Shown: positions 17,524 to 21,134 of the stretch, in pieces | How positions within the stretch are numbered: the stretch's first letter is position 1 | Layout: the number at the start of each line of letters is the position of its first letter | IMG/VR virus record: IMGVR_UViG_3300050015_000512 | Span: 1 to 32,119 of that record | Strand: one strand, 5' to 3' | DNA length: 32,119 nt | Source of the DNA: a virus | Notes under the pieces: generated by a model | Seen by the model: only the letters and a program-made list of their open reading frames with translations | What the model was told of the DNA's origin: nothing | Database searches by the model: none | Position numbers and translations under genes: made by a program

Positions 17524-18071
17524 CGTGCTACCAGTTTTCCTGTTTGTTTTCCGAGTGCGATTTTGAGTGCCGGGAAGCCGACATCACGGACAGGTTCACT
17601 TAAATAATGATCTTTCGCGCTGGCTTTCGAGTGATTCATCGGTGTTTCGTGCTGGAATAGGGCATATTCAAAACCGCGAGTACCACAATAGGCATGGAAT
17701 GGATTCCCTGAATCTTGTCCAAAATACAACGAATATTGCATGTGAAATTCTACATCATTTTCGAGGAGTGGCTCACCCTTGCTCGTGAGACGCATGGGGA
17801 CAATTTCGGCATGTTCTGTCGGCGTAATAGAATCCATCCACAAGAGAATTAACTCTTCTTGCGTCATTGCCATGATAGATGCTTCACCCGTGGCTTCTGC
17901 TTGATGAAAATATCGCTCATACATATCGAAAGGTATTTGCTCGTCAACTACCGGCATGAGTATTTCAGCGGTTTCAGTATAGGCTTCCTTAACGGCTTCT
18001 GCCGCCCGTGCCATCACGCCTTCGAGGATTGCAATTGGCCCGGATACATCAAAGTAATTGCCTGTTGCCAT
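17520..18071 (-). CDS. Neck/minor head-tail protein candidate (HK97 gp10-like position)
   Basis: 183 aa from ATG 18071, which shares a base with the upstream stop (TGATG) and has GAGGG just upstream; a start 3 bases earlier is equally possible. The N-terminus MATGNYFDVSGPIAILEGVMARAAEAVKEAYTETAEILMPVVDEQIPFD gives a long amphipathic helix followed by a D.QIP.D element, as in gp10-like tail-completion/neck proteins ('V..A...I...AK..APV.TG.L'). The remainder is acidic with aromatic strands (VEFHMQYSLYFGQDSGNPFHAY) and ends basic. It sits between two glycosyltransferase genes, both of which overlap it. The role is inferred from position and the helix pattern; identity is uncertain. Confidence 0.55.
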   Translation of the reverse strand: MATGNYFDVSGPIAILEGVMARAAEAVKEAYTETAEILMPVVDEQIPFDMYERYFHQAEATGEASIMAMTQEELILLWMDSITPTEHAEIVPMRLTSKGEPLLENDVEFHMQYSLYFGQDSGNPFHAYCGTRGFEYALFQHETPMNHSKASAKDHYLSEPVRDVGFPALKIALGKQTGKLVAR

Positions 18072-18784
18072 CATGCCCTCGTTTTGCAATACTCCCGCAT
18101 GGCCTTACGGTCGCCTGTCGCCTGTATTGCCTTGTACTCACGCAGGATCGTCATGCTGTGGGCGTAGTGGGCATTCTGTGATGTTTGTTCACTACTACGC
18201 GGATGTTTGATGTGATAAATGGGTGCACCGAAACGATACGTCGGCCCCACCGCGCCATTAACGGCACAATGAAAGGCGTCATCTTCACAACCCCACCCAT
18301 ACATGCGGTCATCGAAGCCATGCACGATATCAAATGTCTTGCGCGTGACGGCAAAGAAGAGTCCGCAAAAATCACGTAACGGATACCCTTCCGTATCGCG
18401 ATTCAGCATTATGTCTGGCATAGGCGACGAAGGGGGGAATTGCAATAGGAGTTGTGTGCGTAATGAGCGTAGCCAGTACAACCGGTCAAGGGAAATCAGC
18501 GACCACCCAGACTTCAAGCATGTCACGATATCAAGGATAGTGGACGGGGCAAGTAAGGCGTCCGCATCAATACAGATGAGGGTATTCGTGCTGGCGTGTT
18601 GCACTGCATTATTCCGCATACGACTCAGGTTGACTGCCGGGCTGTCCGCGTCGTCTACCCCGGTACACACTTCTGCCATCGGCAAATGATACCGATAAAA
18701 AGACGACAGCCAGGCATAAATGGCTTGCCGGCGTGAATCATCACTCTGAAAGGGAATACAGATTGAAAATAATGGTTTTGCCAT
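18071..18784 (-). CDS. Galactosyltransferase/GT-A type glycosyltransferase
   Basis: 237 aa, ATG at 18784, two bases after the upstream stop, with AGGG as SD. GT-A pattern: MAKPLFSICIPFQSDD at the N-terminus, LSRMRNNAVQHASTNTLICIDADALL with the DAD metal site at residues 73-75, then FCGLFFAVTRKTFDIVHGFDDRMYGWGCEDDAFHCAV (~139-175). The 'GFD..M.GWG.ED..' acceptor-site motif is shared with GT7-type galactosyltransferases and chondroitin polymerase-like domains. The protein is soluble and has no membrane span. It differs clearly from the second glycosyltransferase two genes downstream, so the pair is not a recent duplication and may act in sequence on one glycan. Confidence 0.85.
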   Translation of the reverse strand: MAKPLFSICIPFQSDDSRRQAIYAWLSSFYRYHLPMAEVCTGVDDADSPAVNLSRMRNNAVQHASTNTLICIDADALLAPSTILDIVTCLKSGWSLISLDRLYWLRSLRTQLLLQFPPSSPMPDIMLNRDTEGYPLRDFCGLFFAVTRKTFDIVHGFDDRMYGWGCEDDAFHCAVNGAVGPTYRFGAPIYHIKHPRSSEQTSQNAHYAHSMTILREYKAIQATGDRKAMREYCKTRA

Positions 18785-18785
18785 G

Positions 18786-19181
18786 TTACCCTAATCCCTT
18801 CAGGCTTAACGACCAGTCAATGAGTTTTCCATCAATACGATGGGCAATCGCGGCTTCGATGATATAGGTGGTATGGTCAAGCATACGTCCCTGCTGGCTA
18901 ATTTGCGCAATCGCAGCACCCTTGGCATCATCGGCATAGGTAAACGCGCTGGCCTCAACGGAAAACCGCTTGCCACTCATCCAGGCTTCTGTGCCGACCG
19001 CCACTTCTTCACGCCGAAAACCCTCTTCTGTCCGACAATGCACGATGTAGCTACGTCCGGATGTGATTACTTGCGGTACCTGCGTAACTAAAGTGCCTTT
19101 CAGAGTAATGCGACACGTCAACGGAAACAACTGTGGCATCACCGCGCGAATGCCCGCTAATGTTTTGTTGTCGAAAAGCAT
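18786..19181 (-). CDS. Head-tail stopper/joining protein candidate
   Basis: 131 aa from ATG 19181 (AGAGGA 6-7 bases upstream). The pattern is an N-terminal helix (MLFDNKTLAGIRAVMPQLFP) followed by a small beta barrel: TCRITLKGT, GRSYIVHCRTEEGFRREEVAVGTEAWMSGKRFSVEASAF, then RMLDHTTYIIEAAIAHRIDGKLIDWSLSLKG. This is the layout of SPP1 gp16/HK97 gp6-neighbour stopper proteins, which in that fold define strands and an OB-like barrel. It begins 12 bases after the adaptor gene ends and precedes the first glycosyltransferase. Function is inferred from order and predicted fold. Confidence 0.6.
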   Translation of the reverse strand: MLFDNKTLAGIRAVMPQLFPLTCRITLKGTLVTQVPQVITSGRSYIVHCRTEEGFRREEVAVGTEAWMSGKRFSVEASAFTYADDAKGAAIAQISQQGRMLDHTTYIIEAAIAHRIDGKLIDWSLSLKGLG

Positions 19182-19192
19182 AGCAAGTCCTC

Positions 19193-19609
19193 TCACTGGG
19201 AGCGATATCCGCCCATGTCACCGGGAATGGTATAGGACGGTAACGGACGTGCGGGGTCGGCGGTTTGTGCTGCCGTCTGTTTAATCGCGGCAACATAGGC
19301 ATTGGTATTGGTCGCGAAGGGGTCGGGTAAGAATCCTGACCGCGCTTCATCACGCAAGTCTTCCCAGACTTTCACCTTGCTTTTCCATTGGACTTCAATG
19401 CCATAATGTTCTTGAAAGAAGGAAGGTTGATTGCCGTACCGAATCACGAGACGTTCGCAAATGAAGGCAATCGCTTGACGGTAACCGACAGTATTCAGTA
19501 GTGCGGTAATCTCTTCATCATGCAATATCGCATTGGAGGGATCGGTATCGTCAATAAGAAAGCGCACGAAGTCTTTATAGGTGGGAAGTGTGTAATTGTA
19601 TGAAAGCAT
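19193..19609 (-). CDS. Head-tail adaptor (gp6-like connector)
   Basis: 138 aa from ATG 19609 with GAGG 6 bases before; a longer frame to 19699 runs into the plus-strand promoter region and is rejected. The opening YTLPTYKDFVRFLIDDTDPSNAILHDEEITALLNTVGYRQAIAFICERL is characteristic of phage head-tail connector proteins ('L.DTDPS...L.DEEI..LL'), which form a helical ring under the portal. The C-terminal part is Ala-rich and flexible (NAYVAAIKQTAAQTADPARP). It is the first gene after the plus-strand mini-gene interruption, so it needs read-through from the capsid genes or its own promoter; none obvious was found. Confidence 0.78.
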   Translation of the reverse strand: MLSYNYTLPTYKDFVRFLIDDTDPSNAILHDEEITALLNTVGYRQAIAFICERLVIRYGNQPSFFQEHYGIEVQWKSKVKVWEDLRDEARSGFLPDPFATNTNAYVAAIKQTAAQTADPARPLPSYTIPGDMGGYRSQ

Positions 19610-19634
19610 GGTGCGCCTCGAATGGGAAAACGTG

Positions 19635-19663
19635 TGGACATAATGGGGAAAATATGTTACACT
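19635..19663 (+). promoter_or_regulatory. Predicted plus-strand promoter of the moron-like mini-gene
   Basis: TGGACA (19635-19640), 17-base spacer, TACACT (19658-19663): 5 of 6 and 4 of 6 matches to the -35 and -10 consensus with ideal spacing. The predicted start near 19670 is followed by a 7-bp inverted repeat (TGCCCTG 19678-19684, CAGGGCA 19702-19708) and then the SD of the plus-strand gene. The dyad could be an operator or a leader hairpin. Confidence 0.52.
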
Positions 19664-19677
19664 GACGGATAGATGAA

Positions 19678-19708
19678 TGCCCTGACGATGGTGGCACATC
19701 CCAGGGCA
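19678..19708. promoter_or_regulatory. Dyad in the leader of the plus-strand mini-gene
   Basis: TGCCCTG (19678-19684) is perfectly matched by CAGGGCA (19702-19708) with a 17-base loop. It lies just after the predicted transcription start and ~18 bases before the AGGAGG site, a typical place for a repressor operator or a regulatory leader stem. Confidence 0.45.
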
Positions 19709-19740
19709 CGGCCAACACCTTAAAAGGAGGTATCAGCGCC

Positions 19741-19905
19741 ATGAGTATACCACTACCTATCCCCAAAATCAAGTATCTGCCCCGTGACATCCCTATCGGT
19801 GCCATCTTTGGGAGATGGACAGTCATAGGAGAAGATGTGTTGTTTCGTATTCTACGTTATATAGAAGAATTCAAATACTCCACATGGATGTCGGTTACGC
19901 CATAA
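19741..19905 (+). CDS. 54-aa moron-like protein, opposite strand to the head operon
   Basis: A plus-strand gene in an otherwise all-minus block. ATG 19741 is preceded by a near-perfect SD (AAAGGAGG) 10 bases before it and by a predicted promoter at 19635-19663, and it is followed by a strong terminator at 19972-20012. The product is 54 aa and begins MSIPLPIPKIKYLPRDIPIG. A central 'IGAIFGRWTVIGE' stretch resembles the 'G..FGR.TV' element found at the N-terminus of some phage HNH/AP2-type DNA-binding proteins, but the protein is too short for a nuclease domain. It ends in EEFKYSTWMSVTP. Function unknown. Self-contained signals and reverse orientation fit the definition of a moron (independently expressed cargo gene). 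Confidence 0.68.
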   Translation: MSIPLPIPKIKYLPRDIPIGAIFGRWTVIGEDVLFRILRYIEEFKYSTWMSVTP

Positions 19906-19971
19906 CGACACCGTTACTTTCGATCTATGGAAAAGCAATTGGACATAAACAATTAAAATTGCGTAAATAAG

Positions 19972-20012
19972 ATATCGGGGAATGTGTTAATTCGGACTAC
20001 ATTCCCCGATAT
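19972..20012. terminator. Strong, probably bidirectional terminator between capsid gene and mini-gene
   Basis: A perfect 14-bp stem: ATATCGGGGAATGT (19972-19985) with ACATTCCCCGATAT (19999-20012), loop of 13 bases. On the plus strand TACTCTTTG follows; on the minus strand CTTATTTACGCAATTTT follows. It stands 3' of both converging genes, the major capsid gene (stop 20036) and the plus-strand mini-gene (stop 19905), so it can insulate both. Confidence 0.78.
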
Positions 20013-20035
20013 TACTCTTTGCGTCTTGCTATTTA

Positions 20036-21079
20036 CTACCCAACGCTTAGAATTATGACTCCGTTTGGAAAATAAATAGCCGGTCCCCCGTTGTGCCCAC
20101 GGTGAATCACGATGTTGCGCGGCACGAGATCGGGATCATCCACGATCTTGATATACGGCCCGGCATCGAAGTTCGGGTTTTGCGCATTACGCGTCTGCAC
20201 GTATTCACCCAGCACGTCGTTATTCGGGCGCGTCCCAATCAACACGACCTTGTTATCCGGGATGTAATACTGCCATACTTGGGAATCATCGAGATAGCCG
20301 TCGTTCATCACAATCGGCGCGGGCAATCCGAAGTTCTCAAACAAGTTCGCGATATCGGACATACCCGGCAAGAGTCCCTTCATGCCCGCCACAATGCGCG
20401 TCCCGAGCGAGACGGAATTGATGATGTAATTGAATGTGCGGCGATTCATGTACATCTTGGCGTTGGTGCCGAATCGGCAACTGGTACCGGCTTCGTAGAG
20501 TTGCTGCACAGCCTGCAAGTCCTGCAATGGTTTACTGGTCGCGACGGTGGCCCATGGCACATTCGCGAGGCCGTCTGTGGTGTCGGTGTAGGAAATCTTG
20601 CGGATATCATACTGCCCGTTGACCTGTGTGGCTCCGGTACCAGGGGCAATCACGGTGATGACGCCGGTCGTCAGCAACGTCCAAATATTGCTGCGCACGC
20701 GAGTGACTTCACGCCCAACCAGTTGCTTCAGGCGCTCGACTACGAGATCATCGATGTTGATCACTGCACCCGGTGCGTTATATGGCGCACGGGTGGTGAG
20801 TTCGCGCTCGGATATCACTTCCTGTTCCCCATAGACGCCGGGAGCCATCGCATACATGCTCGCGCCAAGGGCCTGCACACGCGGGGCCTGTCCGTCAAGA
20901 CCGCGCGCCGCCTGCAATCCAGAGATGTTTTCCTTCATCACCCATTCAATGTTATGGACGGGTTTTGCCGTGATGGGAAAGTCCGCGAAGATCGGATCAG
21001 CCGACAGCATAGCTTCGGACATCAAATCCGGTTCGAGCAATTTCAGCTCATAATTGGTAGGATACTGTACTTGATACAT
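20036..21079 (-). CDS. Major capsid protein (lambda gpE-like)
   Basis: 347 aa, ATG at 21079 with AAGGAG upstream. The features are those of the Phage_cap_E family (HK97 fold): N-arm (YELKLLEPDLMSEAMLSADPIFADFPI), an extended loop with EVISERELTTRAPYNAPGAV (INIDDLVVERLKQLVGREVTRVRSNIWTLLTTGV follows as the spine helix), MYMNRRTFNYIIN, then the conserved C-terminal DDSQVWQYYIPDNKVVLIGTRP and GPYIKIVDDPDLVPRNIVIHRGHNGGPAIYFPNGVI. Length is close to gpE (341 aa). It follows the decoration genes and ends at a strong terminator, as expected for the most abundant virion protein. It forms the hexamers and pentamers of the head. A 336-codon plus-strand frame across it is only its antisense shadow. Confidence 0.93.
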   Translation of the reverse strand: MYQVQYPTNYELKLLEPDLMSEAMLSADPIFADFPITAKPVHNIEWVMKENISGLQAARGLDGQAPRVQALGASMYAMAPGVYGEQEVISERELTTRAPYNAPGAVINIDDLVVERLKQLVGREVTRVRSNIWTLLTTGVITVIAPGTGATQVNGQYDIRKISYTDTTDGLANVPWATVATSKPLQDLQAVQQLYEAGTSCRFGTNAKMYMNRRTFNYIINSVSLGTRIVAGMKGLLPGMSDIANLFENFGLPAPIVMNDGYLDDSQVWQYYIPDNKVVLIGTRPNNDVLGEYVQTRNAQNPNFDAGPYIKIVDDPDLVPRNIVIHRGHNGGPAIYFPNGVIILSVG

Positions 21080-21134
21080 AGCCTGTACTCCTTAAAGATG
21101 TGAAATGGTAGCCGGAGCGACCGGCCATGTCGCG

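Follow-up and report, generated by a model that had tools for sequence, protein, structure and literature searches.

A small plus-strand frame beside a phage capsid gene is very probably a relic of a zinc-ribbon/HNH endonuclease gene

The sequence analyzed here, an IMG/VR virus record of 32,119 bp (the window, taken at its full length), carries all of its large genes on the minus strand, including those for the terminase, a Mu-like portal, a MuF-like protein, a protease, the capsid, the tape measure, and the endolysin. The major capsid protein gene (20036 to 21079, minus strand), recognized by its family match to Phage_cap_E, is followed downstream by a minus-strand gene at 19193 to 19609. This neighbor had been labeled a connector in the initial annotation, which is unproven, its only match being to phrog_1732, of unknown function (E value of 1.1e-5). 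Between the two genes lies a segment of lower GC content (0.44 for 19615 to 20030, below the 0.52 of the window), which carries a plus-strand open reading frame (ORF) of 54 codons, from ATG to stop at 19741 to 19905. Beyond the capsid-proximal genes, farther downstream in the late block, a galactosyl-transferase-like gene (18071 to 18784, minus strand) matches phrog_1721, of the moron/host takeover category (E value of 1.3e-9), and is a better cargo candidate than the 54-codon frame. A 336-codon open frame on the plus strand (20093 to 21103), antisense to almost the whole capsid gene, is probably a composition-driven shadow frame.

The 54-codon frame had been described as a moron-like mini-gene with its own expression signals, and several of these are indeed present. 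A good Shine-Dalgarno sequence (AAAGGAGG, 19723 to 19730, plus strand) precedes the ATG by 10 nt, and the leader contains a 7-bp dyad (TGCCCTG/CAGGGCA, 19678 to 19684/19702 to 19708). The promoter-like pair TGGACA-17-TACACT (19635 to 19663, plus strand) is present, but pairs of this type occur at chance level, with 3 observed versus 2.8 expected in 19000 to 21000. A perfect 14-bp inverted repeat (19972 to 19985/19999 to 20012) lies between the frame and the capsid gene, and folding of 19960 to 20024 indicates a strong hairpin (dG of -31 kcal/mol; z = -7.05 versus shuffles). As the proposed terminator it fares less well, with no clear plus-strand T-run and no listing in a simple terminator scan; it is possibly a terminator for either strand. 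Two 22-nt stretches in direct orientation, 77% identical and with common TTGGACATAA-like ends, lie near both ends of the insert (19622 to 19643 and 19927 to 19948), and could be either chance or an insertion trace. A second plus-strand ORF of 51 amino acids (19815 to 19970), unmentioned in the initial annotation, overlaps the 54-codon frame; the homology described next is divided between the two.

Searched as a whole, the 54-amino-acid product has no relative encoded in 50,697 phage records and none confirmed in IMG/VR. The proposed tblastn search was run with the 54- and the 51-amino-acid products against the phage records and returned nothing usable, pattern searches of IMG/VR with each fragment gave no confirmed relative, and no stand-alone protein homologous to the 51-amino-acid frame was found. 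The segment has no match in Pfam, NCBIfam, or Rfam. Matches to an Aeromonas "homing endonuclease" (E value of 3) were dropped, as they ran antisense to that gene.

Homology is found when the two frames are read in succession. The first 31 codons of frame 0 (MSIPLPIPKIKYLPRDIPIGAIFGRWTVIGE, 19741 to 19833) match the N terminus of phage zinc-ribbon/HNH endonucleases (...IPIGxxFGRWTVIG), and the homology of the 54-amino-acid product is confined to this part. From ~19833, the frame of the 51-amino-acid ORF matches the C-terminal helix-turn-helix (HTH)-like end of these endonucleases (RCVVSYSTLYRRI...AITTP), and this stretch (RCVVSYSTLYRRIQILHMDVGYAITTP...) runs with its stop from 19833 to 19970. 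In pairwise comparison with intact viral relatives, frame-0 residues 15 to 30 are identical at 10/16 positions to residues 9 to 24 of L015 (RDIPIGAIFGRWTVIG / KDIKVEDSFGRWTVIG), and residues 10 to 28 match residues 11 to 29 of L201 at 9/19, including IPIG and GR.TV (IKYLPRDIPIGAIFGRWTV / VNYSVPNIPIGMKWGRLTV). Residues 7 to 33 of the other frame share 11/27 with L015 (193 to 219), 12/27 with L201 (200 to 226), and 14/27 with L202 (201 to 226; RCVVSYSTLYRRIQILHMDVGYAITTP / RCVVSYGTLRDRLKS-GMSPEEAITKP). The phrog_1065 profile likewise matches the C-terminal frame (E value of 8.6e-4), and the phrog_374 and phrog_3377 profiles have no match anywhere in the record, relic included. With both L201 and L015, the halves align collinearly to opposite ends of the intact protein, the core being unmatched in the alignment; for L202, the BLAST match is at the C-terminal end only. 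Measured against intact relatives, the zinc ribbon and HNH core are missing, amounting to ~150 to 170 codons or ~450 to 510 bp; against L015, L201, and L202, the loss is ~170 codons. The N-terminal homology ends, and the C-terminal homology begins in a changed frame, at a putative deletion junction placed by alignment at 19828 to 19838, and the last 23 codons of the 54-codon ORF (DVLFRILRYIEEFKYSTWMSVTP) seem to be the C-terminal part of the relic read out of frame.

The stretch IGAIFGRWTVIGE had been said to recall HNH/AP2 proteins; the HNH lead was correct, but AP2 was not found, no intact relative tested having a Pfam AP2 match. Screening IMG/VR for DNA that encodes the FGRWTVIG-type motif yielded 18 viral contigs. 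In 18/18 the frame runs into a zinc ribbon, and all of these exact matches fall in zinc-ribbon or HNH proteins. In several contigs, the frame also reaches the HNH core (YGGRGI.VC, DRIDN..GYEPGNCRW) and the C-terminal HTH-like end, and such intact carriers are phrog_374/3377 HNH endonucleases. Intact members include L015 (7848 to 8531), L201 (2438 to 3124), L202 (2435 to 3154), and L203 (1512 to 2147), the first three of which also match phrog_1065, at or including the C-terminal end. L201 lies directly upstream of a terminase gene, and L203 lies inside a tail/endolysin block. The family is common, since two of its proteins have matches in 771 and 828 phage records. One 62-kb viral contig (IMGVR_UViG_3300025864_000016, the source of L042 and L202) harbors two or more distinct HNH endonuclease genes of the subclade, a few kilobases apart, both ending in an RCVV.Y-type C terminus. 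In L045 and L122, the zinc-ribbon module is doubled ahead of the HNH core. Three contigs (L006, L016, and L019) encode identical 75-amino-acid stand-alone FGSWTVIG zinc-ribbon proteins, possible minimal derivatives of the same endonuclease family. Like the relic, these carry the N-terminal motif (FG.WTVIG) in a short ORF, but they retain the zinc ribbon, whereas in the window ORF the motif is followed by no cysteine.

Set against the PHROG 374/3377 HNH endonucleases, the segment keeps the N-terminal GxxFGR[WL]TV motif (IPIGxxFGRWTV) and the C-terminal HTH-like end (RC.(V/I)SY.TL..R....AIT.P, of the form RC.VSYSTL..R....AIT.P), in the same order and, as in the family, near late genes. It differs in that the two ends stand in different frames, the reading frame changing at ~19833, and in lacking both the zinc ribbon (CxCxCG ... 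SCGC), absent from all frames of 19600 to 20040 and from the alignment, and the HNH core (RC...YGGRGI.VC ... DRIDN..GY.P.NCRW). Because zinc ribbon, core, and uninterrupted frame have all gone, we regard the segment as a pseudogene derived from a PHROG 374/3377-type family and not as a member of it.

We therefore read the segment, with a probability of about 0.88, as the decayed remnant of a free-standing zinc-ribbon/HNH endonuclease gene of the PHROG 374/3377 family, which stood next to the capsid gene until an internal deletion destroyed it. The lost gene was probably a homing endonuclease. Free-standing homing endonucleases cut the DNA of gene-free relatives near conserved genes, and their own genes are thereby copied in. 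In phages such genes are reported to be enriched near terminase and capsid genes (PMC10448857). Such a gene would have inserted on the plus strand, presumably by homing, into the space that separates the capsid gene from the following late gene. A deletion inside it would then have removed both the zinc ribbon and the HNH catalytic core, so that the N-terminal start now runs directly into the C-terminal HTH-like end, out of frame with it. The Shine-Dalgarno site and the start codon, along with any promoter or terminator, would be leftovers of the signals that once expressed the gene. Transcription of the segment would yield a 54-amino-acid peptide of 31 relic and 23 out-of-frame codons; this would have neither the zinc ribbon nor the nuclease or DNA-binding part and so most likely has no function. 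With two gene ends fused out of frame and the middle lost, the segment is in all likelihood a dead relic rather than a novel anti-defense or exclusion gene.

Among other readings, it is improbable that the segment encodes a domesticated mini DNA-binding protein, either the 51-amino-acid frame (19815 to 19970) or a ~76-amino-acid -1 frameshift product, which would keep the HTH-like end and regulate, for instance, the capsid gene. The C-terminal part is free of stops and matches phrog_1065, and there is a parallel in CapR of Vibrio phage satellites, which shares a domain with homing endonucleases, being homologous to their DNA-binding domains (PMC10448857). However, inspection of the sequence reveals no properly spaced Shine-Dalgarno site for the ATG at 19815 and no canonical -1 slippery heptamer near 19831, and a stand-alone homolog is lacking, as noted above. 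A programmed -1 frameshift was set aside for want of such a heptamer near the junction, and its product would still be without the core. We consider it just as improbable that the deletion derivative has been retained for a small regulatory or immunity role, the 51-amino-acid HTH-like end or the 54-amino-acid peptide working against the intact endonuclease or on the capsid gene.

Slightly less probable again is the reading first proposed, in which an intact 54-amino-acid moron serves superinfection exclusion, anti-defense, or lysogeny. The intact start, the good Shine-Dalgarno site, the hairpin behind the frame, the opposite strand, and the lower GC content all speak for it, and the insert does look foreign, as reverse cargo beside a capsid gene would. 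What does not hold is a self-contained, intact mini-gene: homology covers only the first ~31 of 54 codons and picks up again in another frame, so the frame is not intact relative to its homologs. The product has no relative in the phage records and no Pfam or NCBIfam match, the promoter pair is at chance frequency, and there is no evidence for any of the three functions.

Each half is short (~19 and ~27 residues) and alone weakly significant. As relatives L004 to L021 had been selected through the N-terminal motif, some circularity attaches to the N-terminal match to L015 but none to the C-terminal match. An initial profile test had the same partial circularity at the N terminus, some members having been retrieved by FGRWTVIG, and it was redone with profiles built from relatives retrieved solely by core motifs (SCGC, GGRGI.VC). 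Among 1154 open segments in the window, the locus scores best with both the N-terminal profile (10.3 bits; E value of 0.029) and the C-terminal profile (14.3 bits; E value of 0.0022), and the two matches abut on the same strand in the right order. When the whole window was shuffled 300 times with dinucleotides preserved, an N-type match as good occurs in 30 (10%) and a C-type match in 2, and the pair, defined as both types in order within 900 nt, occurs in 0/300; the product of the shuffle rates and the distance limit is ~1e-5 per window. Two accidental short similarities in an ordinary noncoding spacer, which the weakness of each match alone might suggest, are thus the least probable reading of all.

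Relatives of the virus were sought with its capsid and terminase proteins. Terminase relatives were found, but capsid-region synteny is absent among them, and none of the relatives found has an intact gene or an empty site at the relic's position. In a distant relative, Microcystis phage Mwe-Yong1318-1, whose capsid is 27% identical, the capsid gene and the gene that follows it on the same strand are ~50 bp apart, versus ~427 bp here; because that following gene has no detectable relation to its counterpart in the window, the short gap lends weak support to an insertion.

As a decayed endonuclease gene, the segment has precedents. The HNH-AP2 (group V) genes of Xanthomonas oryzae phages Xp10, OP1, and Xop411, hegG and hegJ of T5, and mobA of T4 likewise decayed after insertion, some with loss of the nuclease domain: six HNH-family proteins of the Xanthomonas phages have lost the HNH domain, and the T5 heg genes and T4 mobA are degenerate and broken (PMC2248197). 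Those genes belong to HNN-AP2 or other HEG types, and small indels broke several of them, whereas the relic is of the zinc-ribbon/HNH type with an internal out-of-frame deletion. By analogy, an inserted gene on the opposite strand, with its own Shine-Dalgarno site and an out-of-frame deletion, would fit the decay of fixed homing endonuclease genes, a known fate of a known type of element.

The relic is otherwise ordinary, and it adds one more case in which HNH-type selfish genes settle beside phage capsid or packaging genes and then decay. It also corrects the moron call: a gene can be gone and still leave behind a convincing start codon, Shine-Dalgarno site, and hairpin, and recognizing such relics requires looking for homology split across two overlapping frames.
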